64,000 bases of DNA, from NCBI RefSeq assembly GCF_000282095.2, contig NZ_AKKC02000004.1:1116001-1180000 (forward strand), in the 5' to 3' direction. Numbering within the stretch: position 1 is the stretch's first letter; every line of letters begins with the position of its first letter. A program made the position numbers and the translations under genes. Of the stretch, positions 4,691 to 33,663 are shown piece after piece. A model generated the notes under the pieces. That model worked only from the letters and a program-made list of their open reading frames with translations. It did not search any database and had not been told where the DNA came from. The DNA comes from Rhizobium sp. CF080 (GTDB lineage: Bacteria; Pseudomonadota; Alphaproteobacteria; Rhizobiales; Rhizobiaceae).

Positions 4691-6909
4691 GTGTATTTCA
4701 GGCTCGCGGTGATCGTTCTGCCTGCCCCGTAATTGCAGCTTCCGCCGGTCAGGTTGAGGCAGTGCGAGACATATTTCTCATCGAACAGGTTGGAGACGTT
4801 GACCTGCAGCTTCGTTCCCTGAAATTCCGGCTTGATGGCGCCGAAATCATAGGAGGCGCCGATATCGACGAGCGTACGAGCGGGTATGCGCAGTTCGTCC
4901 AGGTAGGTCACATCCGTCTGGTAGGCCGACATGTAACGCACGCCGGCGCTGAGCGACAGGCCCTCCACCATGCTCGGCCGGTAGTTCAGCCACAAGCTCG
5001 CTTGATGTTTCGGCAGGCGTAGCACCTCGTTGCCGACGGCCACCACATTGCTCGATTCCAGCACTTCGGAGTCCGAATAGGCGTAGGAGGCGAGCACATC
5101 GAGCTCCGGCGTCAGCTCGTACTTGCCTTCAAGCTCGATGCCGCGCACGCGCTGCTTGCCGTCCTGCGCATAACCTGCGGGACTGGCAGGCCGCGGACCG
5201 ACCGGGGTCAGCGCATTACGCAAATCGAGATTGAAGAAGGACACATTGATCATGCCGCGCCCTTCGACCGGCTCGTATTTGACGCCGACTTCGAACTGCT
5301 CGGCCTCCTGCGCTTTGAAGGGGTTGCCGGAGATATCCGTGCCCATGACGGGCAGGAAGGCGGTGGAATAGCTGACGTAGGGCGCGAGGCCATTGTCGAA
5401 GAGGTAGGTCAGACCGGCGCGCCAGGTCAGCGCCTTGTCGTCGGTCGTCACCGTCCTGTTCGACAGCCGGTTGCGGGATTCGATATCGGACATGTCATAG
5501 CGCAGTCCGAAGGTGCCGAGCCAGCCGCCAGCGCGGATCTGGTCTTGCATGTAGAGCCCCACTTGGTTCTGTGTCTGCATGCCGGAGGCCGTAACCGGCG
5601 CGACGGGGAAAACATAGCCATAGACCGGATCGAGATAATCGATGCCGGGGACGAAGGTGCCAAAGCCGGTATTGCCGAAGTTGGTGCTGGATTTGCCGTG
5701 CACATAGTCGATGCCAAACAGTGCGGTGTGATCGAAGCTGCCGGTCTCGAATTTTGCCTCCACCTGAGTGTCGACCGCGAAGCTGGAGCTCCAGTCGTCG
5801 GAAATGGCCGTCACGCGGCTGAGATCGCTTGTCGGCGGCGAGGTAACGGCAAAGGCAGGATTGACCAGAACCAGATCCATATGCTGGTCGGAGCGGCCGT
5901 AGCGCAGGTTCTGGCGCACTGTCCAGGTCTCGTCGAAGGAATGTTCGAACTCGTAGCCCGCATGATAATAATCGCGCCGGAAGCCGCCCCAACTCGGGTC
6001 GCCCAGGAAGACATCGCGTGGGATCTGTCCGTCGGGATTGGGCAGCAGCGTGCCATAGGCCGGGTAGAAGCGTGGATTGAAGACCGGGTCGTCGTGCTGA
6101 TAGTAGCCGTAGAGCGTCAGCGAGGTGTCGCCATCGGGCGACCATGTGAGGCTCGGGGCGATCATACCCTGCCGGTCGCGCTCGTGGTCAATCTGCGTGT
6201 GCATGTTGCGCGCCTGGCCGAGCAGCCGGTAGGACCATACGCCATCCTCGGTGATCGGCCCGGTCGTATCGAAGGAGGCCTGGACGCCGCCGAAACCGGA
6301 GGTGCCGATCGAGACTTCGTTGTGGGGTGTCGTCTGTGGCCTCTTGCTCACCTGGTTGACGAGGCCGCCTGGCACGGTGCGCCCGTAGAGCACCGAGGCT
6401 GGCCCCTTGATCACCTCGACCCGCTCAAGCGCATAGGGATTGATGGTCGGCGTCGAATAATTGTTCGGATCACCCGGCATCGCCAGCCCGTCGAGCCACA
6501 TCATGCCGTAGGTGTTGAAGCCGCGGATATAAAGCCAGTCGTAACGGATGTCGTAGCCATTCGATTCGGCAAAGACACCAGGGGTATACCGCAGCGACTC
6601 CGAAACCGTATTGGCGCCCTGCTCGGCGATCTGGTCACGGGTAACCACGCTGACCGCCTGGGGCGTCTCGCGCAAGGCCGTATCTGTTTTGGAAGCGGTG
6701 GTACTGCGCTTGGCGACAATGCCTTCATCCGGCCCCTTGGGTGATCCGCTTTGAATAACGATCGGCTGTAACGTCGTGTCCTGCCGCGCCTCCTGGGCAA
6801 AGACCACGACCGGCAGGGCAAACAGCGCCATTGATGTCAGAAGCAAGCCGAGCGGGCGGCTTGCTCCATCGGCACTGTCATTCTTTCCAACTCGCTTGCA
6901 CTGCCCCAC
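4684..6909 (-). CDS. TonB-dependent siderophore receptor
   Basis: Outer-membrane ferric-siderophore receptor of 741 aa, GTG start at 6909. A signal peptide (PLGLLLTSMALFALPVVVFA) is followed by a TonB-box-like QPIVIQ. The plug domain spans about 65-175 (ETPQAVSVVTRDQI, VIKGPASVLYG, GGLVNQVSKRP). The rest is a 22-strand-type beta barrel with repeated aromatic strand ends, finishing in the FDEKYVSHC loop and a C-terminal aromatic (YTW). It is most like the FhuA/FoxA/FpvA TIGR01783 group. It leads the minus-strand operon with the FecB-like and SIP genes and faces a PchR-like AraC gene across a 7-bp inverted repeat. The siderophore cannot be named. Confidence 0.95.
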   Translation of the reverse strand: MGQCKRVGKNDSADGASRPLGLLLTSMALFALPVVVFAQEARQDTTLQPIVIQSGSPKGPDEGIVAKRSTTASKTDTALRETPQAVSVVTRDQIAEQGANTVSESLRYTPGVFAESNGYDIRYDWLYIRGFNTYGMMWLDGLAMPGDPNNYSTPTINPYALERVEVIKGPASVLYGRTVPGGLVNQVSKRPQTTPHNEVSIGTSGFGGVQASFDTTGPITEDGVWSYRLLGQARNMHTQIDHERDRQGMIAPSLTWSPDGDTSLTLYGYYQHDDPVFNPRFYPAYGTLLPNPDGQIPRDVFLGDPSWGGFRRDYYHAGYEFEHSFDETWTVRQNLRYGRSDQHMDLVLVNPAFAVTSPPTSDLSRVTAISDDWSSSFAVDTQVEAKFETGSFDHTALFGIDYVHGKSSTNFGNTGFGTFVPGIDYLDPVYGYVFPVAPVTASGMQTQNQVGLYMQDQIRAGGWLGTFGLRYDMSDIESRNRLSNRTVTTDDKALTWRAGLTYLFDNGLAPYVSYSTAFLPVMGTDISGNPFKAQEAEQFEVGVKYEPVEGRGMINVSFFNLDLRNALTPVGPRPASPAGYAQDGKQRVRGIELEGKYELTPELDVLASYAYSDSEVLESSNVVAVGNEVLRLPKHQASLWLNYRPSMVEGLSLSAGVRYMSAYQTDVTYLDELRIPARTLVDIGASYDFGAIKPEFQGTKLQVNVSNLFDEKYVSHCLNLTGGSCNYGAGRTITASLKYTW

Positions 6910-6947
6910 TTTATCGCCCCATCGTCTTCACAGTCACATTTGCCTTA

Positions 6948-6970
6948 AACTTGATTTACCTTGTCAAGTT
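6948..6970. promoter_or_regulatory. inverted repeat between the TonB receptor and AraC genes (candidate operator)
   Basis: A perfect 7-bp inverted repeat, AACTTGA-N9-TCAAGTT, lies in the short divergent region. On the minus strand it contains TTGACA, which could also serve as a -35 element for the receptor operon. Its position suits a binding site for the adjacent PchR-like activator or an iron regulator. It does not obviously match the direct-repeat site usual for AraC proteins, so the cognate protein is uncertain. Confidence 0.5.
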
Positions 6971-7095
6971 AATGTAGCATTATGAAAATCGGCTGCTCGT
7001 GAGCAAGGGCTGAACTTTTGCGGAACGATGTCAGATCTTTGCCAGCCGATGAAATCGCGCGTGGATTTCAAAACCGACGGGATGCGGAAGTACGG

Positions 7096-8106
7096 ATGAA
7101 CGCAAGCCAAGACAGGGCGCAGCCCATGGCTTCACCGCGCAGGCGCTTTCGCGTACGCGATTTCCTGGAGCGCAAAGGCGTGACGCTGGAGAGCCCCGAC
7201 GACAGGCTCACCATGGAAGACACGCTGATGGAGGGCGACTTCTTCCATCAGGAACTCCGGCGTGGGCTGTTCCTGCATCTGAGCGACGCCATGGAGGCGC
7301 GCGCCTTCACCGCTTCCTCCCATGTGCAGGAGGGTCTCTCCTGCATCTTCTTTCTCGACGGCGAAGTAGGGCTGAAGATCGGTGACCGGCATTTTGCATT
7401 TGACGGATGCCGTAACGGCACGGTGGAAGGCACCGCCATCATGAGCGCTCGCCCGGACAGCTTCGAACGCCAGTCGCACGGCGCTCAGCGGCTGCGTCAT
7501 CTCGTCGTCTCCGCCTCTCCGGAATGGTTGGATCTGGAAGGACTGCAGGGGCATGCAGGCACGGGTTCCGCCCATCACCTCTTCAGCGGACATCTTGCCA
7601 GCCAGCGCTGGCGCCTCACCCCGCGGGCCATAGAGCTCGTCGGCCAACTCACCAATGCACCGGAGCTGACGCCGGCGCTACGCAATCTCTATCTGGAGGC
7701 GCGCACCATCGAACTCGTCGGAGAAGCGCTCTCAGCCCTGCTGCGCACCGATATCGACAACAAGGTCGGCGATGCGCTGACGCAGCAGGATCTGATCCGC
7801 CTCAAGCGCGCCAGAGATTTTATCGAGGCCAACCTGATGGCCGCCTTGAGCGTCGAAATGATCGGACGGGAAGCCGGCATCAATCCAAGCGGGCTGCAGC
7901 GTCTCTTCCGTCTGGCCGAAGGAATGAGCGTATTCGGCTATGTCCGTAAGCTCCGGCTGGAGCAGGCGTTCACAGCGCTGCAAGCAGGTGAGATGACCAT
8001 CCCCGAGGCAAGTCTATTCGCCGGTTATTCAAGCCCCGCCAATTTCTCCACCGCCTTCCGTCATCGCTTTGGTGTATCTCCGCGAACGACTCGCCGGGGC
8101 AAGTAA
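7096..8106 (+). CDS. AraC-family regulator, PchR-like (siderophore-responsive)
   Basis: Transcriptional activator of 336 aa. The C-terminal third holds two helix-turn-helices (LSVEMIGREAGINPSGLQRL and IPEASLFAGYSSPANFSTAF), ending in the HRFGVSPRT motif typical of AraC proteins. The N-terminal part resembles PchR-type sensors of ferric siderophores (GLFLHLSDAMEARAF, then a cupin-like stretch with FFLDGEVGLKIGD). I place the start at ATG 7096; an upstream TTG at 7018 would add 26 poorly conserved-looking residues. Divergent orientation to the TonB receptor is the usual layout for regulators that sense the incoming siderophore and activate its receptor. Confidence 0.87.
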   Translation: MNASQDRAQPMASPRRRFRVRDFLERKGVTLESPDDRLTMEDTLMEGDFFHQELRRGLFLHLSDAMEARAFTASSHVQEGLSCIFFLDGEVGLKIGDRHFAFDGCRNGTVEGTAIMSARPDSFERQSHGAQRLRHLVVSASPEWLDLEGLQGHAGTGSAHHLFSGHLASQRWRLTPRAIELVGQLTNAPELTPALRNLYLEARTIELVGEALSALLRTDIDNKVGDALTQQDLIRLKRARDFIEANLMAALSVEMIGREAGINPSGLQRLFRLAEGMSVFGYVRKLRLEQAFTALQAGEMTIPEASLFAGYSSPANFSTAFRHRFGVSPRTTRRGK

Positions 8107-8261
8107 AAAGCGTACCAAGCGCGCCCGGTTAGCAACTCGACACTTAGAAGAGGGGCCTGTGCGCGGGGCGCCAGATACACGAACAGGACACGCACCAACT
8201 GGTAGCTTCGCAGATATGGAAATCAGCGACGATACCGCAAGTGAATAACGACCGAATATCA

Positions 8262-9662
8262 CTAGCTTAAGTTCTTTGCCAAAAAACTATAAAATCGTTC
8301 ATCAACCGCGCGTGCAACGTTAAGCCTTATTCCTGATGCTATGGCATTGTTCTTGTTCAGGCAGAAAACGCTTCCCGGTGCAATGAAGATACTTTCCCTG
8401 GCGCCACGTCTGGCGAACTCTATGTCGTCGATCTGCTCGGGCAGCAGAAGGTACAGATAATATCCACCGCCATTGCCGGCAAAGACCTCACATCCCAGAA
8501 GCTTGAGCTTCTGAAGAAGCTGGATTGCCGCCCCGTCGATCCGGCTCGCCAATCGTTTTAGGTGCCTGTCATAGTGTCCCTCGACCAGCAGCCGATGGAT
8601 CAGCCGCTCGACATGGCCGGAACTGTTGACGGTGGTCAGCATCTTCAATTCGGCAAGCGCGCCGATCTGCTGACGGTTGCCGACGATGTAGCCGGCGCGA
8701 AGGCTCGCCGACAGCGTCTTGGAAAATGTCCCGACGGACATCACGCGGTTGAGCTGGTCGAGCGTGACCAGGCGGCTCGGCACGCTTGGTGCCAGATCGG
8801 CAAACGGATCGTCCTCGACGATCGTTACGTTGTGCACCGCAGCGGCATTCAACAGAGCATGTGCGACGGGCAGGCTCGTCGAGCTGCCGGTCGGATTGTG
8901 CCCGATCGATTGGGTGAAGAACAGCCGCGGGCGTTCGGCTGTCGCCTTCGCCACAAAATCGTTGACATCGGGGCCTTCCGGCGTGCGCCGGACGCCGAGC
9001 ATGCGAACCTGCGCGAGCTTGAGCTTGGCGAACAGCGGATAATAGCCGGGCTCGTCGACAAGCACGACGTCGCCAGGAGACAGGAAGGCCCGAACGATGA
9101 GATCAAGTGCGTGGTTAGCGCCGAAGGTCAGCAGGATTTCATCTTCCGAAGCCCTCAAGTGCTGGGCCGCCAGACGTTTCGATATTTCTCCCCGGAGTGC
9201 CGGGAAGCCAAGCGCCGAACCGTAGGCGTCCATACCCGCCGTATGGCCTCGTCCGAAGAAGCCGAGATGGCGTTTGATTTCCGATTCCTCGGTCCACGAC
9301 GGGGGCGGACGGCCGTCACCCACGCGGATCTCGAAATTTTCCTCGAGCTGGGCGCTCAGCAGCGACGCGATATCCACGGCCTCCGCGACATGCCGAGGGC
9401 GGCCGCTCCGATCGGCATCCTGCGGCACGCAGACCTCGAAGCCGGACCCCGGCCGCGATGTCGCGTAACCGGATGCCACAAGCCGATCATAGACTTCGAT
9501 GACCGTGTTCTTGGAGACACCGTAGCGGTCCGCCGCCTTGCGGATGGACATGAGCCGGCTTCCCACAGGAGGCTGGCCCCGCAGGATTTCGTCGGTCAGC
9601 TGCGCCGTCAGCCTGTCGACCAGAGTGCCGGGTTGCTTGAGATCGCCGTCGACCATTGCCAC
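8262..9662 (-). CDS. MocR-type GntR regulator with aminotransferase-like domain
   Basis: A 466-aa one-component regulator: GntR winged helix at about 15-80 (GSRLMSIRKAADRYGVSKNT) joined to a fold-type I aminotransferase domain. The PLP machinery is intact: HNPTGS near 255-260, EDDPFAD near 283-289, and the Schiff-base lysine K315 in SVGTFSKTLSAS. MocR proteins usually sense PLP or a PLP-amino-acid adduct. It is divergent from the HMG-CoA reductase operon, with a perfect inverted repeat between them, so it probably controls that operon and itself. Why a mevalonate-type operon would use a PLP-binding regulator is unclear; the effector may be an amino compound. Confidence 0.92.
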   Translation of the reverse strand: MAMVDGDLKQPGTLVDRLTAQLTDEILRGQPPVGSRLMSIRKAADRYGVSKNTVIEVYDRLVASGYATSRPGSGFEVCVPQDADRSGRPRHVAEAVDIASLLSAQLEENFEIRVGDGRPPPSWTEESEIKRHLGFFGRGHTAGMDAYGSALGFPALRGEISKRLAAQHLRASEDEILLTFGANHALDLIVRAFLSPGDVVLVDEPGYYPLFAKLKLAQVRMLGVRRTPEGPDVNDFVAKATAERPRLFFTQSIGHNPTGSSTSLPVAHALLNAAAVHNVTIVEDDPFADLAPSVPSRLVTLDQLNRVMSVGTFSKTLSASLRAGYIVGNRQQIGALAELKMLTTVNSSGHVERLIHRLLVEGHYDRHLKRLASRIDGAAIQLLQKLKLLGCEVFAGNGGGYYLYLLLPEQIDDIEFARRGARESIFIAPGSVFCLNKNNAIASGIRLNVARAVDERFYSFLAKNLS

Positions 9663-25730: not shown

Positions 25731-27227
25731 ATGCTGAAGCAATATATTGTTCTTCCTGCACATGGGTTTAAGTCACAGACGCTGGCTCAGGCCGCGTCCC
25801 TTCGCTCGGCTATTCCACTGGCAGCGGCCGTCGGGGGCGAGGCTCCTGCGACGCGGGTTGCAATCGGCAAGGTCGATGTCATCGATTCCGTCAGTGTCGA
25901 TGGACCGAAACTCGTTGAGATGACGCCCGAGACGGAGCTTGAACTGAGGCTCGAGGAGCCCTCGCTCAAAATCGTTCCTGTCGTTACCTACGAGAAAATG
26001 CGGGTGGTATACGAGATAAAGCGAGACGCCGCGGCGGCCGTGTTTGCCGCTGCCGTTCAGGGGAGCGTCCTGAGGGTGGAAGATTTGGGAGGCAATCCCC
26101 TCGCTGATGCGCGCGTCATCGCCTTCACGAATTTCCGCACGAGAGCTGGCGATGAGGGCAGGACCGACGCGAGTGGCAACGTTCGCCTGCGCATTGCGCC
26201 CGGCACAACCCTGGAACGGGTCTATGTCTATGGGCCTCCCCACTACTGGGGTCGCTTCGAGCGGAACTTCACGCTTGCAGGCGGAGCCAGCCTGCAGCTG
26301 GAGCAGATCGACCTCACGCAGAACCTTCTGGCGCTCCGTCGGTTCAGAGGCGATCTGCCGTTGACAGCTGGCGACGGCGTTGTGGTCGGCATTGTCGACA
26401 GCGGCATCGATCCAAACCATCCGCTATTACCCAACGTGTCAGGCGGAGCCAACATGGTCCTCGATGAAACGAAGGATGACCCAGGGCAGGTTTCCGATTG
26501 GGGGCCCGCAGCTGTCGACGGAGAACATGGGACCCACGTCGCGGGCATTGTCGGAGCACGGCCGGCCGGCGGCATCGATCTTGCCGGGGTCGCGCCAGGT
26601 GTGACATTGAGAAGCTACCGGGTGTTTCCTCACAGCGGTGGCGGAGCCACGAACTATGACATCATGAACGCGATCGACAGAGCTGTTCAGGATGGCTGCC
26701 ATGTCATTAATCTTAGCCTGGGCGGCGGAACCGAGGATGAAGCGGTGCGGGCTGCGATCGGGTCGGCCTTGGATAGCGGAGTTCTGGTCGTCGCCGCAGC
26801 CGGCAATGATGGCCGAAAGCCCGTGAGCTACCCAGCTGCATTGCCTTTTTGCGTGGCGGTATCGGCTGCGGGCTGGACGGGTTCCTTTCCAACGCCTTCA
26901 TCGGAAAGCAGCGATATCGCCAAGCCGCATGGGTCCGACCAGACCTTCCTGGGTGCGTTCTCGAATTTCGGGCCGCAGATAGATCTAACCGGTCCAGGCG
27001 TCGGGGTCGTTTCTACCCTCCCGGGGGGCACGTTCGGTGCCATGAGCGGAACCTCGATGGCTAGCCCCGCGTTAGCTGGCTTCGCAGCCTATCTTTTGGC
27101 CGCGGACGCGACTATATTAGGCCTGACAGGTGCGGGCAAAAGTACCGCTCTGAGAGACAAGCTGTTCGGATCTGCGAGGCCCCTTGGCTTTGGCCGGGAC
27201 TACGAAGGCTTCGGGCTTCCAGGTTAG
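25731..27227 (+). CDS. S8 (subtilisin-like) serine peptidase with unusual N-terminal extension
   Basis: Serine endopeptidase of 498 aa. The catalytic residues are D223 (GIVDSGIDPNHP), H266 (GEHGTHVAGIVGA), oxyanion N359 (AAAGNDGRK) and S442 (SGTSMASPALAG). The first 210 residues are unlike a standard I9 prodomain. Residues about 1-110 are of unknown type, and about 110-190 look like a transthyretin/carboxypeptidase-regulatory-like beta domain (DLGGNPLADARVIAF, GRTDASGNVRLRIAPG). No signal peptide is visible. ATG 25731 has a GGGGGG ribosome site; an in-frame ATG at 25704 would add nine residues. It is followed eight bases later by an 81-aa gene and then by a tyrosinase, so maturation of a partner protein is a reasonable guess. 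Confidence 0.92.
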   Translation: MLKQYIVLPAHGFKSQTLAQAASLRSAIPLAAAVGGEAPATRVAIGKVDVIDSVSVDGPKLVEMTPETELELRLEEPSLKIVPVVTYEKMRVVYEIKRDAAAAVFAAAVQGSVLRVEDLGGNPLADARVIAFTNFRTRAGDEGRTDASGNVRLRIAPGTTLERVYVYGPPHYWGRFERNFTLAGGASLQLEQIDLTQNLLALRRFRGDLPLTAGDGVVVGIVDSGIDPNHPLLPNVSGGANMVLDETKDDPGQVSDWGPAAVDGEHGTHVAGIVGARPAGGIDLAGVAPGVTLRSYRVFPHSGGGATNYDIMNAIDRAVQDGCHVINLSLGGGTEDEAVRAAIGSALDSGVLVVAAAGNDGRKPVSYPAALPFCVAVSAAGWTGSFPTPSSESSDIAKPHGSDQTFLGAFSNFGPQIDLTGPGVGVVSTLPGGTFGAMSGTSMASPALAGFAAYLLAADATILGLTGAGKSTALRDKLFGSARPLGFGRDYEGFGLPG

Positions 27228-27234
27228 GAGGACC

Positions 27235-27480
27235 ATGAGCGATATAGTGATGCACCAGGTAATTTTGCGGAAGGAAAACGCAGCTGCGCCATCTTCAAGC
27301 GAGACCGCCGAGAGAGTCGGTCGCGCTGGCGCCGTTGTTGTTGACGAGAAGGCTTCCTCGTTACTGGTGGAAGGTGACGAAGAAACCATTCGCTCCGCCA
27401 CGCAAGGATTGACCGGATGGAAGACGATTCCGATGAAGCGTTATTCCGTACCTGATACCAGAAAGAAAATCGGCTGGTAA
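27235..27480 (+). CDS. 81-aa protein paired with the subtilase (possible propeptide-like chaperone or inhibitor)
   Basis: Small protein of 81 aa from ATG 27235, with GGAGGA at 27227-27232 overlapping the subtilase stop. I do not recognise a named family. The middle reads AGAVVVDEKASSLLVEGD, then ETIRSATQGLTGWKTI and PMKRYSVPDT. This strand-helix-strand order and length resemble a compact ferredoxin-like fold, as in I9 propeptides/inhibitors of subtilases. Because the peptidase next door lacks an obvious I9 prodomain, a separately encoded foldase or inhibitor is an attractive idea, but it is inference only. Confidence 0.75.
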   Translation: MSDIVMHQVILRKENAAAPSSSETAERVGRAGAVVVDEKASSLLVEGDEETIRSATQGLTGWKTIPMKRYSVPDTRKKIGW

Positions 27481-27564
27481 CCTACCGGCTTCTCTTTTGG
27501 AAATGGTTGATCCGGTGACGATCTGGTTGCCGGAGTGTTTATTTTTTTGCCAGTATTACTAAGC

Positions 27565-27611
27565 GCTAGTCCAGAATTTCTTTAAGAAGTATTCTCGATT
27601 GATAGACTAGC
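27565..27611. promoter_or_regulatory. nested palindromes before the tyrosinase gene
   Basis: A perfect 7-bp inverted repeat GCTAGTC-N33-GACTAGC encloses a second palindrome, TTCTTTAAGAA. The region is AT-rich and lies 83 bases upstream of the tyrosinase ATG, within a 213-base gap between the 81-aa gene and the tyrosinase. A further short hairpin (GCAGC-TTTAG-GCTGC, 27647-27661) follows. It could be an operator for an unlinked regulator or a terminator of the subtilase unit. Confidence 0.45.
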
Positions 27612-27693
27612 ACTTGCGCTACCTTCAGCTTTAAGTATATTGACGTGCAGCTTTAGGCTGCGCCTGAGCGATGGTGTCGATCGAGGGTAGGTC

Positions 27694-29283
27694 ATGTCAT
27701 TCGTTCGCCGAAACGTCTGGAAACTGCCGCCAAATGACGAAACCCTGCTGTGGTACAGCCGGGCGATAGGTAAGCTTCAGGAGCGGGACCTTTCTGACCC
27801 CACCAGCTGGTGGTCACTCGCGGCCATGCACGGTATCGACGAAGAAGTCTGGCGGGAGTTTGGTTACATCCCTGAAGGAACACCGTTGCCGAACAGCCAG
27901 CAGCTGCGAGCCCTTTGGAATCAATGCCAGCATCTCACATGGTTTTTCCTACCCTGGCATCGCGGTTATCTGGCCGCTTTCGAGGCCATCCTCCGTGACG
28001 AAATCGTCAGGCTACATGGACCGAGCGACTGGGCGCTGCCTTACTGGGATTATTCCGGCGACATCCAAAGCTTGCAACTGCCTCGATCGTTCGCACAGCC
28101 TCAGTGGCCGGACGGAAGTCAAAACTTCCTGCATGTGACCCGCAGGTATGGATCCGCCCAGGTTCCTGACGTTCAGACGCCGCTGGTCCTCGATCGAAGG
28201 GTGGTGCCGATTGGTCCGGCGCTCGGCGAGAGGTTCTTCGAAGGTTCGCCCGGGGAAGGGCCTGCCGGGTTTGGCGGTGTCAAGACCGCCTTCTGGCATG
28301 GCGATGAAGGCGAAAGTAAGTTTGGCGGCCTGGAACAACAACCCCATGGACCAGTGCATGTCTGGGTGGGTGGAGGTTTCAAAGGCAACGGGCTCAGCCA
28401 GGATCGGTTCGACCTCGGTCTCATGACCAATCCGGATACAGCAGCACTGGACCCGATTTTCTGGTTGCACCATGCGAATATCGACCGTTTGTGGAAAGTG
28501 TGGTCGCGGCAGGTACGCCGACCGAACGACGGGGACGACGTCTTTGCCGATCCGACCGATCCCGATTGGCTGAACGGGCCGAGAGACCGGCAGTTCATAA
28601 TGCCGGCAGTTGATGGTACTCTTTATACGTTCACACCGCGTGACGTTTTGGATACCGAAGCGCCGAAACTCGGATATCTGTACGATGATGACACGCGGGT
28701 TGCGGAGGCGACAGACCGGGTAGCAGTCCGTTTCGAAAGACTAGGTGTTTCGCCTCAAGTCGCATCCCAGCTTTCAGGGGGCCTTCAAATGGCACCGCCA
28801 AAATCGCCGTCCCTCGTGGGCGCAAACAGCTCGGTCGTCCGCCTCAACAGCGATGTCGTTGAGGCCAGGGTCAAATTGGACAGCGGCGAAAAGCAAAGGC
28901 TTTCGCAAACACTCTCCGTAAGCCCCGGCATTGCGCGCGAGCCGGACCGGGTCTTTCTCAACCTGGAAAATGTGAAAAGCCCGAGCGACGCGGCGATATT
29001 CTATGTTTACGTCGGTCTCCCCGACGGGGTCGATCCTGTGGACGACACGGAACATCTAGCCGGTTCATTCTCCATGTTCGGTGTGAGCAAGGCCAGCAAC
29101 CCCGCCACCTCCTCTGGCAATGGCGTCACGGCCTCCTTCGACATCACGAGTATCATCGACGCCCAGCACGCGGCTTCGGGCCTGGAAGACGAGCTATCGG
29201 TAAAGTTGGTGGCTGCTGTGCCAGGAGCCACCAGCGAGGATATCTCCATAGGACGCATAAGCATCTATCGGCAGGAACAGTGA
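27694..29283 (+). CDS. tyrosinase (type-3 copper polyphenol oxidase) with C-terminal domain
   Basis: Binuclear copper enzyme that oxidises phenols or tyrosyl residues to o-quinones; 529 aa, no signal peptide. CuA ligands: H46 (AMHGID), H80 and H89 (LTWFFLPWHRGY). CuB: H217 and H221 (PHGPVHVW), then the HH pair 258-259 in DPIFWLHHANIDRLW. C78-Q-H80 matches the Cys-x-His motif that makes a thioether bridge in fungal tyrosinases. The core ends near 300. A C-terminal region (about 395-525, with RVFLNLENVKSPSDAAIFYV) resembles the lid-like domain of plant and some bacterial polyphenol oxidases, which keeps the enzyme latent until proteolysis. A subtilase is encoded just upstream. The ribosome site is GAGGGTAGG. 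Confidence 0.94.
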   Translation: MSFVRRNVWKLPPNDETLLWYSRAIGKLQERDLSDPTSWWSLAAMHGIDEEVWREFGYIPEGTPLPNSQQLRALWNQCQHLTWFFLPWHRGYLAAFEAILRDEIVRLHGPSDWALPYWDYSGDIQSLQLPRSFAQPQWPDGSQNFLHVTRRYGSAQVPDVQTPLVLDRRVVPIGPALGERFFEGSPGEGPAGFGGVKTAFWHGDEGESKFGGLEQQPHGPVHVWVGGGFKGNGLSQDRFDLGLMTNPDTAALDPIFWLHHANIDRLWKVWSRQVRRPNDGDDVFADPTDPDWLNGPRDRQFIMPAVDGTLYTFTPRDVLDTEAPKLGYLYDDDTRVAEATDRVAVRFERLGVSPQVASQLSGGLQMAPPKSPSLVGANSSVVRLNSDVVEARVKLDSGEKQRLSQTLSVSPGIAREPDRVFLNLENVKSPSDAAIFYVYVGLPDGVDPVDDTEHLAGSFSMFGVSKASNPATSSGNGVTASFDITSIIDAQHAASGLEDELSVKLVAAVPGATSEDISIGRISIYRQEQ

Positions 29284-29284
29284 G

Positions 29285-30061
29285 ATGCGGGCGGCCACCG
29301 TCGCCTGGCTCGCACTATCGCGACAGCCACGCCCGATTCTCATTCTGACGGTGGCCGGCTGGATTCTCATGGCCAGTTCGGCGGTTGTTCCCGCAATCCC
29401 CGACTTCTGCCTGTCGACCACGACTTTTGGACAACAAGTCGCCGTAAGGGCGGAAGCGGGTTTGGCATCGATGGACCTCGTTCTTGCCGCAGGCTCGTGG
29501 CTGGCAATGCTCGTCGCAATGATGTCACCCCTGATATCAGCGCCTTTGCTGCACGTTTGGCGACAAAGCCTGGGTCGCCGCCGGTGGCGCGCCATGGGGC
29601 TATTCCTATGCGCCTACGTGTTCGTCTGGATGGTGGCCGGCGGGCTCCTGATCTCAGTCGCGGTGCTGGTGCAAGCCCTGGTGTTCGAGATCGGCGTCGC
29701 TCCAATCGTGGTCGCGGCTCTCATAACACTGTCGTGGCAAGTCACCCCATGGAAACAATTTTCCCTCAACCGCTGCCACAGACGGCCAACCCTGGCCGCT
29801 TTCGGGCTTGATGCCGAACTGGACGATCTGCGCTTTGGCTTCGTGCGTGCCTTCTGGTGTATCGGCACATGCTGGGCATTCATGCTTTGCGCACTTCTCA
29901 GCAACGGCTTGCTTCAGTGGGGCGTCATGGCAGCTGTCATGTCGGTTTCTCTATTTGAGCGCATCCGTGAACCACGACAACCTAGCTGGTTCTCCGCCTT
30001 GGGCCGGCCTTTGCTGAGCATTCCTCGAGGTCACCTGCCGATCCATCGAGGCGCGTCATGA
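29285..30061 (+). CDS. DUF2182 integral membrane protein (predicted metal-binding)
   Basis: Membrane protein of 258 aa with about six to seven hydrophobic segments, starting one base after the tyrosinase stop. The DUF2182 signature is visible: AGSWLAMLVAMMSPLISAP in an early helix, then ITLSWQVTPWKQFSLNRCHRRP and, after a loop, AFWCIGTCWAFMLCALLSN. Conserved Met, Trp, Cys and His residues are the reason such proteins are called metal-binding. Coupling to a tyrosinase suggests a role in copper supply or membrane anchoring; this is inference. Its stop overlaps the start of a 51-codon ORF. Confidence 0.88.
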   Translation: MRAATVAWLALSRQPRPILILTVAGWILMASSAVVPAIPDFCLSTTTFGQQVAVRAEAGLASMDLVLAAGSWLAMLVAMMSPLISAPLLHVWRQSLGRRRWRAMGLFLCAYVFVWMVAGGLLISVAVLVQALVFEIGVAPIVVAALITLSWQVTPWKQFSLNRCHRRPTLAAFGLDAELDDLRFGFVRAFWCIGTCWAFMLCALLSNGLLQWGVMAAVMSVSLFERIREPRQPSWFSALGRPLLSIPRGHLPIHRGAS

Positions 30062-30213
30062 TCGTCAGCACTCCCGTCTGTGATGCGCTAGATCTTCTGG
30101 ATGTGTCTGGCCCTCACGAAGTGGGACGTCGCGCGCAACCTGTGCCTCCGTGTCCGAGTACTCCGCAGGAGCCGCCGCAATGCATGTTTGATTTCAGCCG
30201 AAAAGCAATGTGA
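30058..30213 (+). CDS. 51-aa small ORF overlapping the DUF2182 stop (Pro/Cys-rich)
   Basis: An ATG at 30058 overlaps the DUF2182 stop as ATGA and opens 51 codons ending in TGA at 30211-30213. This stop lies eight bases before the next gene's ATG, so the frame exactly fills the gap. The peptide starts MIVSTPVCDALDLLDVSG and has a Pro/Cys-rich second half (QPVPPCPSTPQEPPQC) with cysteines at 8, 32 and 42. There is no signal peptide or membrane segment. Tight packing and stop-start coupling argue that it is translated. It could be a copper-binding peptide or a substrate of its neighbours, but it contains no tyrosine, so it is not an obvious tyrosinase substrate. It may also be a chance frame. 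Confidence 0.45.
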   Translation: MIVSTPVCDALDLLDVSGPHEVGRRAQPVPPCPSTPQEPPQCMFDFSRKAM

Positions 30214-30220
30214 GAGGTGG

Positions 30221-30649
30221 ATGATGACAATATCCGAACTTGTAGGAGAATGGACCTATCGCAGCTTCCGCAACGACCCGGATCCAGTCGATGGTGATCC
30301 TCAAAAGGCGCTCGATCTCTTCTTCGCGGAAGCCGAGTTTCGTTTTGAAGCGGTAACCGACACCGAGTTTAAAGGCGTTATCGACTGGGGGAGTGGTGGC
30401 CTGGACATGGCTGGCCGATTGCTGCCCGGTTCGCCTGATACCCCCGTGGCCTTCTCCATTGTCGGGACGGGCCGGCAGGGGAGCCAGACCGAGGGCTGGC
30501 AGTATGATTACAACGGTTGCGTAGCCCATCGCTGGCCAAATGGCACAAATCAGATCGCTTCGCTCGTCGGTACGGTGATCAGAGCAAAGCCGCATAATGG
30601 CGCGCCGGCTGGTTACACTGCGTCGTTCATTGCCGTTAAACGACCCTGA
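30221..30649 (+). CDS. 142-aa protein of unknown function, beta-barrel-like (tyrosinase locus)
   Basis: I do not recognise a named family. ATG 30221 (or the adjacent ATG 30224) follows GAGAGGTGG; a frame running back to 30101 is not needed. The sequence alternates short strands with turns: VGEWTYRSFRNDP, EFRFEAVTDTEFKGVIDWG, PVAFSIVGTGRQG, GWQYDYNGCVAHRWPN and ASLVGTVIRAKPH. This looks like a small lipocalin/avidin-like barrel, which often binds hydrophobic or aromatic ligands. No signal peptide is seen. Its place between DUF2182 and the multicopper oxidase suggests a part in the same phenol-oxidising system. Confidence 0.75.
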   Translation: MMTISELVGEWTYRSFRNDPDPVDGDPQKALDLFFAEAEFRFEAVTDTEFKGVIDWGSGGLDMAGRLLPGSPDTPVAFSIVGTGRQGSQTEGWQYDYNGCVAHRWPNGTNQIASLVGTVIRAKPHNGAPAGYTASFIAVKRP

Positions 30650-30720
30650 GCGACGAAAACCAACCAAAGTCCCACCGGTAAGGAAGCGGCCGGTTTCACT
30701 GTAAAAATTGGGGGCACCAA

Positions 30721-32742
30721 ATGCGAAAGCAGAACGTTGATATCGCAGGAATCTTGGCCGTGGCGGCTTTGATCTGGCCCATCGCGCAGGATGCGGCGAT
30801 GGCTCAAGATGTGGTTCGGGCCGTGGATAATCCGCGAGTCCTGCAACCGTCATCGGAACCGCGTTCAAAAGTCTTGATGAACACGCTCGAGCCGGCCGCA
30901 GGGCCTGCACGCGAAAAACTGTTGGATCTCAATATTGTCTACACGGCGAGCAAGCTCTTCAATCCAGCAACGAATAGCTACGATAAGGTCAAGCTGAGGA
31001 GCTACAACGGCACAGACGTTAGCCCGGACGTTCCTTATGTGTCTCCAACGATTGAGGCCGCGCCGGGGCACACGATCCGGATCAATCTCAACAATCAGCT
31101 TCCGGGCGAGGCGAGTTGCACAAGCGGCGGTGCTCATCCGAACGAGCCGCATTGCTTCAATGGCACTAACCTCCACGCGCACGGCCTTTGGATCAACCCC
31201 GCCGGCAATGGCGACAATGTGCTTCTGTCGATCAATCCGGGCGTGGGCTTCCAATACGAATACAACATTCCAAGCGACCATCCCGCCGGTACATACTGGT
31301 ATCACACGCACCGGCACGGCTCGACAGCTCTGCAGGTTTCAAGCGGCATGGCGGGCGCCTTGATTATCCGTGGTGACCGGCTTCCGACACACGGTCGGAG
31401 CGGCGATCTGGACGTGCTGTTGAAGCCCTTGCGTGAGCGCGTGCAGGTCTTTCAGCAGATCCAGTATGCTTGTTACGAGCCAGGCAGTCGAATCCCGAAG
31501 ACAAACCCAGACGGAACCTACCGTTGCGACGAGGGCGATACCGGCGAGATCGAGGACTATGCAATTTTCGGTCCGGGAGAGTGGCTCGCGTCGGGACGAT
31601 ACACCTCAGTCAACGGCGCGGTGCTACCGACGTTTCGCACGTCACAAGGTGAAGTGGAACGATGGAGACTAATCCACGCGGGCGTCCGCGATACAATCGC
31701 TTTGAAGTTCGTGAAAATGGCCAATGTAACGGCCTTGCCGCAAAAGCTCGATCGCGCTGCGGCCGAAAAATTCATCCACGAATCTTGCATTGGGGCGACT
31801 GTGCCTTTTCATCTGGTTGCCGCCGACGGTCTTACGATGGCGGCAGCGCAGAAGGTGGATGTCGCAACGCTTCAGCCCGGATATCGTTTCGACGGATTGG
31901 TTGCGTTTCCGGAGAGCGGAACCTATTGCGTGATCAATGCCGCCGCTACCAGAGCTGGCTCCGTCAATGGTCTCGGGCCACCGGAACGGCTTATCGGAAC
32001 GGTGGAAGTTGCGCCTGGACAGCCCTTCACCGACATCGATCGTCACTTGGTGGACACACTTTCCGCTGCAGCGACAGAGGAGATGCCGACGATCGCTGCA
32101 GCCGTCACCGCCGACCTAAACGATGGCTTGAAATTGAGCAAGTTCACGCCTCATCCGGACATTGCTGACAGCGAGGTGACGGGTCAACAGGAACTGACGT
32201 TCCAGATTGATACGAGCGGCAACCCTCCGGTATTCGGTGTATCCAACAGCTTGAACCCCGCTGAGAGACAGCCTTACGACCCTGATCGTCTCGACCGCAA
32301 GCTAGCGCTTGGTGCTGTCGAGGAATGGACTTTACAGTCGCGGCTGGCTAGTCACCCTTTCCATATCCATGTCAACCCTTTCCAAATCATCTCCATCATC
32401 GATCCCAACGGCAAGGATGTGAGCGCCTCAGATGCGATCGACAACTATAGTCCGACCGGTACCGGAGTTGAAGATCCACAGTATCGGGGGCTCAAGAACG
32501 TGTGGAAGGATACGCTTTGGATCAAAAGTCTCGCGACTCCCGGCAGCGCCGTAGGCATGTATCGGATAAAAATCCGCACCAGGTACCAACGCTATATCGG
32601 AGCCTTTGTACTTCACTGCCACATTCTCGATCACGAGGACCAGGGAATGATGCAGAACATCGCGATTGTTCTTCCGGATGGCAACGTCAACACCCTCAAT
32701 TCACCTCAGGCTGTCAACGGTCAGCAAGCCCATCGGCATTGA
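30721..32742 (+). CDS. secreted multicopper oxidase (laccase-like)
   Basis: A 673-aa blue copper oxidase with a signal peptide (GILAVAALIWPIAQDAAMAQ). All four copper motifs are intact: NLHAHGLW (about residue 150), YWYHTHRHGS (about 196), HPFHIHVNPF (about 543) and HCHILDHEDQGMM (about 637), the last giving the T1 Cys with a Met axial position. The usual substrates are phenols or aromatic amines. GGGGGCACCAA precedes the ATG. Being periplasmic, it may complete the oxidation of products made or exported by the tyrosinase unit. It is longer than typical CueO or CotA proteins, mainly through insertions in the middle domain. Confidence 0.93.
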   Translation: MRKQNVDIAGILAVAALIWPIAQDAAMAQDVVRAVDNPRVLQPSSEPRSKVLMNTLEPAAGPAREKLLDLNIVYTASKLFNPATNSYDKVKLRSYNGTDVSPDVPYVSPTIEAAPGHTIRINLNNQLPGEASCTSGGAHPNEPHCFNGTNLHAHGLWINPAGNGDNVLLSINPGVGFQYEYNIPSDHPAGTYWYHTHRHGSTALQVSSGMAGALIIRGDRLPTHGRSGDLDVLLKPLRERVQVFQQIQYACYEPGSRIPKTNPDGTYRCDEGDTGEIEDYAIFGPGEWLASGRYTSVNGAVLPTFRTSQGEVERWRLIHAGVRDTIALKFVKMANVTALPQKLDRAAAEKFIHESCIGATVPFHLVAADGLTMAAAQKVDVATLQPGYRFDGLVAFPESGTYCVINAAATRAGSVNGLGPPERLIGTVEVAPGQPFTDIDRHLVDTLSAAATEEMPTIAAAVTADLNDGLKLSKFTPHPDIADSEVTGQQELTFQIDTSGNPPVFGVSNSLNPAERQPYDPDRLDRKLALGAVEEWTLQSRLASHPFHIHVNPFQIISIIDPNGKDVSASDAIDNYSPTGTGVEDPQYRGLKNVWKDTLWIKSLATPGSAVGMYRIKIRTRYQRYIGAFVLHCHILDHEDQGMMQNIAIVLPDGNVNTLNSPQAVNGQQAHRH

Positions 32743-32938: not shown

Positions 32939-33436
32939 CTATTCGGCCTCATAGCCTGCCGCTTTGAAGAAGTTTCGGCATTCTGCGACTGAGAAGAGGC
33001 TGATGATATCGCCGAGCGCCTGTGTGAGTTCATGCTGAACCGCGACTTGCGGGGCTGCCCAAGCTAAACCGGCCTGTCTCATCTGGGCGAGCAATTTTTT
33101 GCGAAAGACTTCGGCTGGCGTTCGATAGCCAAGACATCTGCGCGGTGTCGCATTGAGCCGATTGCAGATCTCGATCAGATCGGCGTCTGTGACCGACAGT
33201 GGATCGACCTCTCTCGAAAGCCATTTCCGTACCCTGCCGTTGGTGTTCTCGACCGTGCTTTTCTGCCAGGGTGATTGTGGATCGCAGAACCACGTTTGGG
33301 TGCCGATGCGGGCCTGGAGATACGGCCAGTCGGTGAACTCCGTCCCGCGGTCGAAGGTGATCGAACGGCGGGAAAGATGGGGCAGGGACTGCAGGGCTTG
33401 TATGAGGCCGTCCATAACAGGCCGGGTGCCGATCAT
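32939..33436 (-). pseudogene. IS30-family transposase fragment with foreign (IS630-like) C-terminus
   Basis: The frame contains the second half of an IS30 catalytic domain: LSRRSITFDRGTEF (second Asp), CDPQSPWQKSTVENTNG (Glu) and PRRCLGYRTPAEVF. The first catalytic Asp is missing. After the normal IS30 end the frame continues into LTQALGDIISLFSVAECRNF and FKAAGYEAE, which is the style of an IS630 transposase tail. So this is a truncated IS30 gene read into an IS630 remnant. It cannot be active. The 196 bases between the multicopper oxidase and this stop hold no gene that I recognise. Confidence 0.75.
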
Positions 33437-33663
33437 TGTTCATGGCTCACCGAGATAGGATGAGGTTCCAGCCGCATTCGGCAGGAGATCTTCTGTGGTG
33501 ACCAGCCGTGCACGATCCGCTCCCGCAGACGACGCACCTGGCGCTCACTTAGATCGAGCACATGCGTCGCCGACACCATCGTCATCCGGCCGGCAATCAC
33601 CTTCGACAAAATTTCGATCCGCTGCAGATCGCGCTCGCTCATCGCAATCAGTCCCATCCGCAA
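33433..33663 (-). pseudogene. ISNCY-like N-terminus joined to an IS30 segment
   Basis: The first 40 residues (MSERDLQRIEILSKVIAGRM from residue 8, then SATHVLDLSERQVRRL) match the N-terminal HTH of ISNCY/IS1202-type transposases. They are followed by IVHGWSPQKISCRM and ISVSHE, an IS30-type segment, and then a stop. The frame overlaps the next IS30 fragment by four bases in another phase. About a hundred residues of the IS30 middle are absent. Confidence 0.7.

Follow-up and report, generated by a model that had tools for sequence, protein, structure and literature searches.

The closest solved relative of the tyrosinase studied here is HcTyr1 of Hahella sp. CCB-MM4 (PDB 8B74), which according to the excerpted text of its report becomes about 10 times more active on loss of its lid (PMC11609597); for vsTyr, the excerpt of the source terms lid removal 'likely' proteolytic. 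In the PpoB1-PpoB2 operon of Marinomonas mediterranea, a tyrosinase gene is followed by that of a PF09948/COG5486 protein, PpoB2, which in the excerpted account transfers copper to the tyrosinase (PMC2855505). McoA and MepA of S. meliloti GR4 produce melanin, and a mutant lacking both has a raised sensitivity to Myxococcus (PMC7010606). Among bacterial conflict systems, System 3 combines trypsin and NucA, sometimes with S8, EAD1 and STAND components, and the excerpted text proposes activation by a proteolytic cascade (Kaur et al. 2020, PMC7159879). Here we analyse a 64,000-nucleotide stretch of Rhizobium sp. CF080 (the window; contig NZ_AKKC02000004.1), in which a latent-type tyrosinase and a PpoB2 gene stand behind genes for a subtilase (S8 protease) and a small partner of 81 amino acids (aa). 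We propose, with a probability of about one half, that these four genes form a protease-triggered latent tyrosinase, likeliest for a defence or damage response.

This core shares the tyrosinase-PpoB2 order with the Marinomonas operon but has the S8 and 81-aa genes upstream, whereas a protease is not named in the excerpted account of that operon. HcTyr1 loses its lid slowly without a protease, as far as the excerpt goes, while relatives of the window tyrosinase repeatedly adjoin proteases. The S. meliloti GR4 cluster (mcoA-hypothetical-mepA) has a homologous oxidase and 142-aa protein beside a tyrosinase, but MepA is of another class, and neither a protease nor PpoB2 is among the annotated genes of that locus (L137). 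System 3 is approached in relatives, where the S8 and 81-aa genes accompany a Trypsin_2-Endonuclease_NS protein (L133/L134) and where such genes join a tyrosinase-PpoB2 pair (L015); the window block itself lacks NucA and trypsin, and the word 'tyrosinase' occurs 0 times in the main text of the System 3 paper. The parts are of known kinds, and their combination appears to be new.

The tyrosinase, PpoB2 and the subtilase pair

The tyrosinase gene (27694..29283, + strand) encodes a catalytic domain (residues ~1-335), a linker (~331-372) and a DUF7868 lid (~373-529). Pfam scores are 120.5 bits for Tyrosinase (cut-off 22.6) and 138.6 for DUF7868 (PF25271, cut-off 25), and the motifs AMHG, CQH, PWHRG, PHGPVH and LHH are intact. 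The six copper-binding histidines (H46, H80, H89, H218, H222 and H259/H260) are invariant in alignments of 11 and 53 rows, the structural model has a predicted local distance difference test (pLDDT) score of 91, and alignments to the latent polyphenol oxidases 8b74, 6els, 4z11 and 4oua_B span both domains. The polyphenol-oxidase-like C-terminal domain read in the initial annotation is thus borne out by family match, alignment and model; homology and modelling support a lid-bearing enzyme of latent type, whose activity the lid would hold back. Typical of the window-type family are the lid, PpoB2 and a linker of variable length (24-54 residues in the rows displayed). Two Paludibacterium loci encode the catalytic domain and the DUF7868 lid as separate neighbouring open reading frames (ORFs; L057, 1458-3107; L060, 10001-11533), which we count in favour of a protease-triggered latent tyrosinase. 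An extra stand-alone DUF7868-like gene follows DUF2182 in the loci L010 (9439-9954), L077 (12403-12840) and L096 (12441-12941; Pfam was run on this one only). In a single case, L015, the linker of a tyrosinase beside a trypsin is arginine-rich.

One base past the tyrosinase stop codon (29283/29285) starts the gene for a DUF2182 membrane protein (29285..30061, +), which matches PF09948 at 81.8 bits (cut-off 28.7). Initially listed among proteins of no known function, it is, on its family match, PpoB2, a known family of tyrosinase copper chaperones; it would transfer copper here too, in keeping with the copper handling envisaged in the initial annotation. A PpoB2 homologue is present at 90 of 92 loci, and in 89 of the 92 it lies in one same-strand cluster just 3' of the tyrosinase.

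The S8 gene (25731..27227, +; 498 aa) matches Peptidase_S8 (PF00082) over residues 214-465 at 155.7 bits (cut-off 21.8). Its motifs DSGID, HGTHVAG, AAGNDG and GTSMAS are intact with the D-H-S triad present, the PADLOC 'subtilase' model matches it at E 2.3e-37, and it resembles the maturation proteases QhpE and PatA/PatG below cut-off. The 7 Mb genome of CF080 has three S8 genes, and a class-wide search at E 1e-60 found a window-like S8 in 1 of 289 genomes, only CF080 itself. Directly 3' follows the 81-aa gene (27235..27480, +), whose protein matched no Pfam family in a scan that used a longer, 98-aa ORF. Homologues stand directly 3' of S8 in L018, L092, L131, L132, L133 and L134, with a distant 91-aa form in L009 and L017, and these small partners share an invariant GW and Y close to the C-terminal end. 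The 81-aa partner occurs in 3 of 92 tyrosinase loci, and no tyrosinase is annotated near the S8 of a Variovorax genome (H99; S8 41% identical). An alignment of the 81-aa family with the S8 N-terminus (hhalign), bearing on the idea of an I9-type propeptide, gave a probability of 0.1 from shallow alignments. PDB matches of the 81-aa protein to clostridial toxin repeats reflect a short GW..I....Y repeat and were set aside as chance. Neither the tyrosinase nor the S8 N-terminus shows an obvious export signal by eye, so both proteins are probably cytoplasmic.

All block genes were confirmed at their coordinates on the + strand, and Pfam matches and motifs agree with the same-strand block with intact catalytic residues in S8, tyrosinase and oxidase that had been described initially. 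Gene order outside this strain, a test named beforehand, proved conserved. Rhizobiales bacterium AFS066641 (L018) keeps S8-81aa-tyrosinase-DUF2182 (tyrosinase 65% and S8 76% identical). In R. leguminosarum 9B the row runs S8-81aa-tyrosinase-DUF2182-DJ-1-142aa, the oxidase gene flanks it on the opposite strand, and an internal deletion has damaged the tyrosinase. R. hidalgonense FH14 has S8-81aa, a tyrosinase fragment, DJ-1, 142aa and oxidase, and directly 5' of S8 an intact paralogous tyrosinase-DUF2182 pair (39% identical); this apparent reuse of the S8 and 81-aa pair with another tyrosinase counts in favour of coupling. Because the S8-81aa-tyrosinase-DUF2182 order recurs in L018, and in longer versions with a damaged tyrosinase in 9B and FH14, the gathering of the block is, judged from sequence, not due to chance. 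More distantly, a tyrosinase locus in G572 (L116) has the 142-aa gene before, S8 after and the oxidase on the other strand, and an Acidobacteriaceae contig (L065) has the order oxidase-142aa-tyrosinase-DUF2182. A ~21 kb stretch of the R. leguminosarum 9B plasmid (L132, 2095-23006) carries three tyrosinase genes, two S8 and small-protein pairs and a match to the PADLOC TmtA model.

Proteases and conflict-system genes around the tyrosinase family

We collected relatives by keeping 80 of 297 confirmed matches; the set of 101 loci omits L001-L006, which duplicate later loci in shortened form, and the brief search fragments L098-L111. Proteases were counted in 73 representatives (70% identity), two antisense artefacts having been removed beforehand (L112_10741_11295, S8; L014_71_601, S1), and the tyrosinase tree comprises 77 rows built by a quick method. 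E-values from second-round profiles are inflated, since members had helped to build the profiles. At E 1e-20 the tyrosinase occurs in 6 of 247 genomes of the family, and all six (CF080 counted) have a protease gene nearby: S8 in G000, G184 and G195, caspase C14 with CHAT in G235, Trypsin_2 in G231 (L015), and M36 in G004, a weak match just above cut-off (23.7 bits vs 23.3). Beyond these, M4 proteases neighbour the tyrosinase in R. phaseoli and L050, and M43 with an M4 fragment does so in R. ruizarguesonis. Caspase-like proteins with GHG and DAC motifs lie directly 3' of DUF2182 in L011, L113 and L114. A second S8 group is found in L035, L037 and L040, S8 together with trypsin in L012, and gluzincin-like proteins, so called from an HExxH...HEAF motif and similarity to the L016 protein, in L019 and L034. 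In L034 a 1026-aa protein 5' of the tyrosinase (6455-9535) combines a PLD-like domain with an M4/M36-like stretch, and a PLD-like gene also precedes the tyrosinase in a Pseudomonas clade.

At least one protease lies within 3.5 kb of the tyrosinase in 21 of the 73 dereplicated loci. Within that distance there are 22 protease genes in 487 kb, compared with 7 in the 760 kb that lie 3.5-10 kb away (p 6e-5, one-sided binomial test), and S8 alone is found at 11 loci vs 1 (p 2.5e-4, same test), although both comparisons use profiles seeded from proteins near tyrosinases, which favours the inner zone. As a yardstick free of this seeding, Pfam S8 matches per genome or record range from 0 to 6 (n = 16, chosen mostly for a nearby protease), and in the genomes of L040 and L092 the sole match is the one in the tyrosinase locus. 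A lid-less control was too small (PF00264 at E 1e-10 in 5 of 199 genomes of the order). On the tree, unrelated proteases meet in well-supported groups: the window and L018 (S8) with L019 (gluzincin-like; support 100), caspase and CHAT with trypsin (100), and three caspase-like, one gluzincin-like, two S8 and one unlabelled row (98).

Exchange is also seen on the effector side. At E 1e-30, window-like S8 proteins occur in 12 plasmid records, of which 7 reach at least 76% identity; the four of these seven that were opened comprise one damaged tyrosinase block, one oxidase alone and two nuclease-linked loci. In the latter, CIAT894 and a tumour-inducing (Ti) plasmid (L133/L134), the 81-aa gene is followed by one for a protein annotated as a DNA/RNA non-specific endonuclease; Pfam finds Trypsin_2 and Endonuclease_NS in the first of the two proteins, and the second is 73% identical. 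The three other Agrobacterium records have, by coordinates, a nuclease homologue directly beyond S8. The window S8 shares 81% identity with the nuclease-linked one of CIAT894 and 76-82% with tyrosinase-linked S8s, and support in the S8 tree was too weak to order the two kinds. In R. phaseoli, a nuclease (NZ_CP013578) and M4-tyrosinase genes (NZ_CP013550) lie at a similar coordinate, but the sites were not equated as an allelic exchange because their annotated neighbours differ.

Further links lead to conflict systems. L015 (G231) carries on one strand a tyrosinase, DUF2182, a trypsin, an AAA/NACHT-like ATPase (AAA_16 and NPHP3_N above cut-off, NACHT below) and a trypsin-nuclease; its last four genes overlap end to end by ORF calls, and 6 bases separate tyrosinase and PpoB2. 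L084 has trypsin-nuclease and trypsin genes within 10 kb on the opposite strand, one of them with an EAD1 match below cut-off, and CHAT, another S8 and a TIR protein are encoded at the Ti plasmid locus as well. Next to the R. leguminosarum block lies a gene with a match to the PADLOC TmtA model (E 0), and a relative of this gene adjoins the R. hidalgonense block. By Pfam, no NucA endonuclease or trypsin-like domain is present in the genes of the window block, while L015, L133 and L084 have them. A Mesorhizobium plasmid (L142, 4294-10785) has a row of caspase, PLD-like protein and trypsin, one section of the PLD-like protein resembling the trypsin portion of the nuclease fusion.

The sequence comparisons thus support a coupling of protease and tyrosinase: an action of the protease on the effector best accounts for the swaps of protease around one latent enzyme and for the swap of tyrosinase and nuclease behind the S8 pair. 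Bacterial conflict systems have the same kinds of proteases and neighbours as the relatives, which would make a defence or damage response the likeliest use. We infer cleavage, cut site, trigger, toxicity and defence use. In the mechanism that we propose, PpoB2 would load copper into the tyrosinase, as its Marinomonas namesake does, and the enzyme would stay in the cytoplasm, held latent by its lid. A signal may free S8 from its prodomain, from the 81-aa protein (a putative inhibitor or chaperone of S8), or from both. Freed S8 could cut the linker or lid, and the tyrosinase would then generate o-quinones and melanin that poison or seal the cell or its surroundings, while the barrel protein and the McoA-like oxidase may extend polymer formation in the periplasm. 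The tyrosinase would fill the slot that a NucA-type nuclease holds elsewhere and work like the insect prophenoloxidase cascade. The initial annotation had envisaged a self-contained oxidising pathway with its own activating protease; the protease partner gains from the unrelated proteases that recur beside the family, but, given the links to conflict-system genes, a triggered effector seems the better description than such a pathway.

The melanin-cluster genes and the setting of the block

Downstream of PpoB2, a DJ-1/PfpI remnant of 51 codons (30058..30213, +) keeps the start and end of the gene with its middle deleted. Relatives have an intact DJ-1/PfpI gene at this position (L092, PF01965; L022-L024; L132), and the small ORF listed in the initial annotation is thus a dead remnant. 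The 142-aa protein (30221..30649, +), a recurrent tyrosinase partner, has homologues at 12 of 92 and 13 of 101 loci (window counted); its AlphaFold2 (AF2) model, with eight strands and a pLDDT of 87.6, supports the beta-barrel assigned to it from the start. The barrel resembles a domain of quinohemoprotein amine dehydrogenase, and the protein is 35% identical over 142 aa to the hypothetical protein whose gene separates mcoA from mepA in S. meliloti GR4. In an M. huakuii plasmid (L136, 1-7556), one row holds an oxidase, a tyrosinase, two LodA/GoxA-type cysteine tryptophylquinone (CTQ) oxidases, a 142-aa homologue and a flavin adenine dinucleotide (FAD) oxidoreductase; the barrel protein may therefore serve quinone enzymes more widely.

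The multicopper oxidase (30721..32742, +; Cu-oxidase_2/_3) matches Cu-oxidase_2 at 57.0 bits (cut-off 20.4), retains four copper motifs (HAHG, HTHRH, HPFHIH and HCHILDHEDQGM) and is 52% identical over 668 aa to McoA. The oxidase and barrel pair thus belongs to the described melanin cluster (PMC7010606), as the suggestion of a melanin-like product had foreshadowed. The tyrosinase itself is only 29% identical to MepA over 246 aligned positions of the core and, by sequence, is of another class. A signal-like N-terminus, judged by eye, fits the suggested periplasmic location of this second oxidase, with tyrosinase and S8 probably remaining in the cytoplasm. Nothing was found that points to detoxification of plant phenolics, another suggestion made initially. 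In L088 (13014-16169, - strand), a 1052-aa fusion of multicopper oxidase (178-553) and tyrosinase domain (640-831) adjoins a window-type tyrosinase-DUF2182 pair.

The genome that carries the block measures 7.05 Mb (G000; the block is on contig C13), and the flanking genes have their best matches in Rhizobium and relatives. Its guanine-plus-cytosine (GC) content is 0.58 vs 0.63 and 0.61 in the flanks, and right after the oxidase come pieces of IS30/ISNCY-type transposases (32939-33663, - strand), a possible relic of arrival or trimming. The left-hand amidase is matched over nearly its whole length in 3 of 39 other genomes searched within the genus, and in Rhizobium sp. CC-CFT758 different genes follow it. 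At E 1e-40 the tyrosinase occurs in 1 of 57 genomes of the genus, namely CF080. Because of the GC shift, the insertion sequence (IS) pieces, the patchy tyrosinase and the other genes after the CC-CFT758 amidase, the block looks acquired. A plasmid megablast with the whole block returned no record covering most of it, the listed matches being the IS pieces. A phage origin was rejected: 50,697 phage records held 0 tyrosinase homologues, and of 93 pattern-matching stretches in viral contigs 0 were confirmed.

Competing explanations and implications

The main rival, which we consider rather unlikely, is an ordinary copper-dependent cluster for melanin formation or phenol oxidation in stress protection, its protease being a housekeeping maturation enzyme. 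The melanin made by McoA and MepA and the Myxococcus sensitivity of the double mutant (PMC7010606) speak for it, as do the 52% identity of the window oxidase to McoA, the mcoA-hypothetical-mepA order in L137, the natural oxidase-tyrosinase fusion in L088 and the 52 of 73 loci in which a protease went undetected. However, the window tyrosinase differs in class from MepA (29%, core), and this explanation leaves unaccounted for both the swaps among unrelated proteases and the presence of the same S8 and 81-aa pair beside a nuclease. Alternatively, tyrosinase and protease or conflict genes could be independent passengers of variable rhizobial islands and plasmids. Patchiness (CF080 alone among 57 genomes of the genus at E 1e-40), lower GC (0.58 vs 0.63 and 0.61), the IS remnants at 32939-33663, the damaged copies in relatives and a TmtA-model gene or its relative near two blocks would all fit such hitch-hiking. 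It becomes improbable in the light of the protease enrichment, which, subject to the bias from seeding noted above, drops in the same loci at distances over 3.5 kb, the overlapping gene row in L015, the short S8-81aa spacing that is kept, and the reuse of that pair with another tyrosinase. A third idea makes the 81-aa protein the substrate, trimmed by S8 and oxidised by the tyrosinase at its invariant tyrosine to yield a modified peptide or a quinone cofactor. The invariant GW and Y near the small-partner end, the sub-cut-off likeness of S8 to QhpE and PatA/PatG and the resemblance of the barrel to a quinohemoprotein amine dehydrogenase domain are in its favour; it is very improbable, given that the 81-aa gene follows S8 also where no tyrosinase is annotated and is missing from most tyrosinase loci (found in 3 of 92).

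Several observations weigh against a protease-triggered latent tyrosinase itself. No protease was detected within 3.5 kb in 52 of 73 representatives, so the family does not depend on a protease next to the tyrosinase, and according to the excerpted report HcTyr1 sheds its lid slowly by self-cleavage (PMC11609597). The L116 locus has S8 and yet no DUF2182, and a DUF7868 search of its tyrosinase found no lid. Protease labels change 17 times on the tree vs a shuffled mean of 23.1; they are clustered, and therefore not every class switch is independent. The seeding of the protease profiles, already noted, favours the inner zone, and some class assignments lean on likeness: Pfam gave no peptidase match for L019, L034, L011 and L113, whose calls come from similarity to L016 or L014 and from motifs, with no caspase match for L011 and L113, whose plasmid relatives are annotated as caspase family. 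In L009, L016, L017, L019 and L091 the protease lies on the opposite strand, and in the window 213 bases (27481-27693) separate the 81-aa gene from the tyrosinase. The linkers show no clear motif common to a protease class, no STAND, CHAT or TIR sensor was recognised among the block genes, and the McoA/MepA melanin is copper-induced (PMC7010606).

Taken beyond this locus, the protease-triggered reading leads to a broader proposal, possible though with the odds somewhat against it: bacteria may own a prophenoloxidase-type immune cascade, in which a latent tyrosinase is the toxic effector, exchangeable with NucA and independently paired with subtilases, trypsins, caspases/CHAT and thermolysin-like proteases. 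Among the literature matches listed, mostly outside subscription journals, no paper placed a tyrosinase in conflict or defence systems, and 'tyrosinase', 'phenol' and 'melanin' are absent from the main text of the conflict-system papers PMC7159879 and PMC8195603. The insect cascade (see PMC4700666) likewise has a latent copper phenoloxidase that is switched on by proenzyme activation. The parallel with the window tyrosinase is a functional one. Since animal prophenoloxidase belongs to the arthropod hemocyanin family, the likeness lies in working, not in descent. For the question of how lids are removed in cells, the pairings with unrelated proteases give testable enzyme-substrate pairs. If the proposal is true, phenol oxidation with toxic quinones would belong to the chemistry of bacterial conflict systems and would form a functional parallel to insect melanisation immunity.

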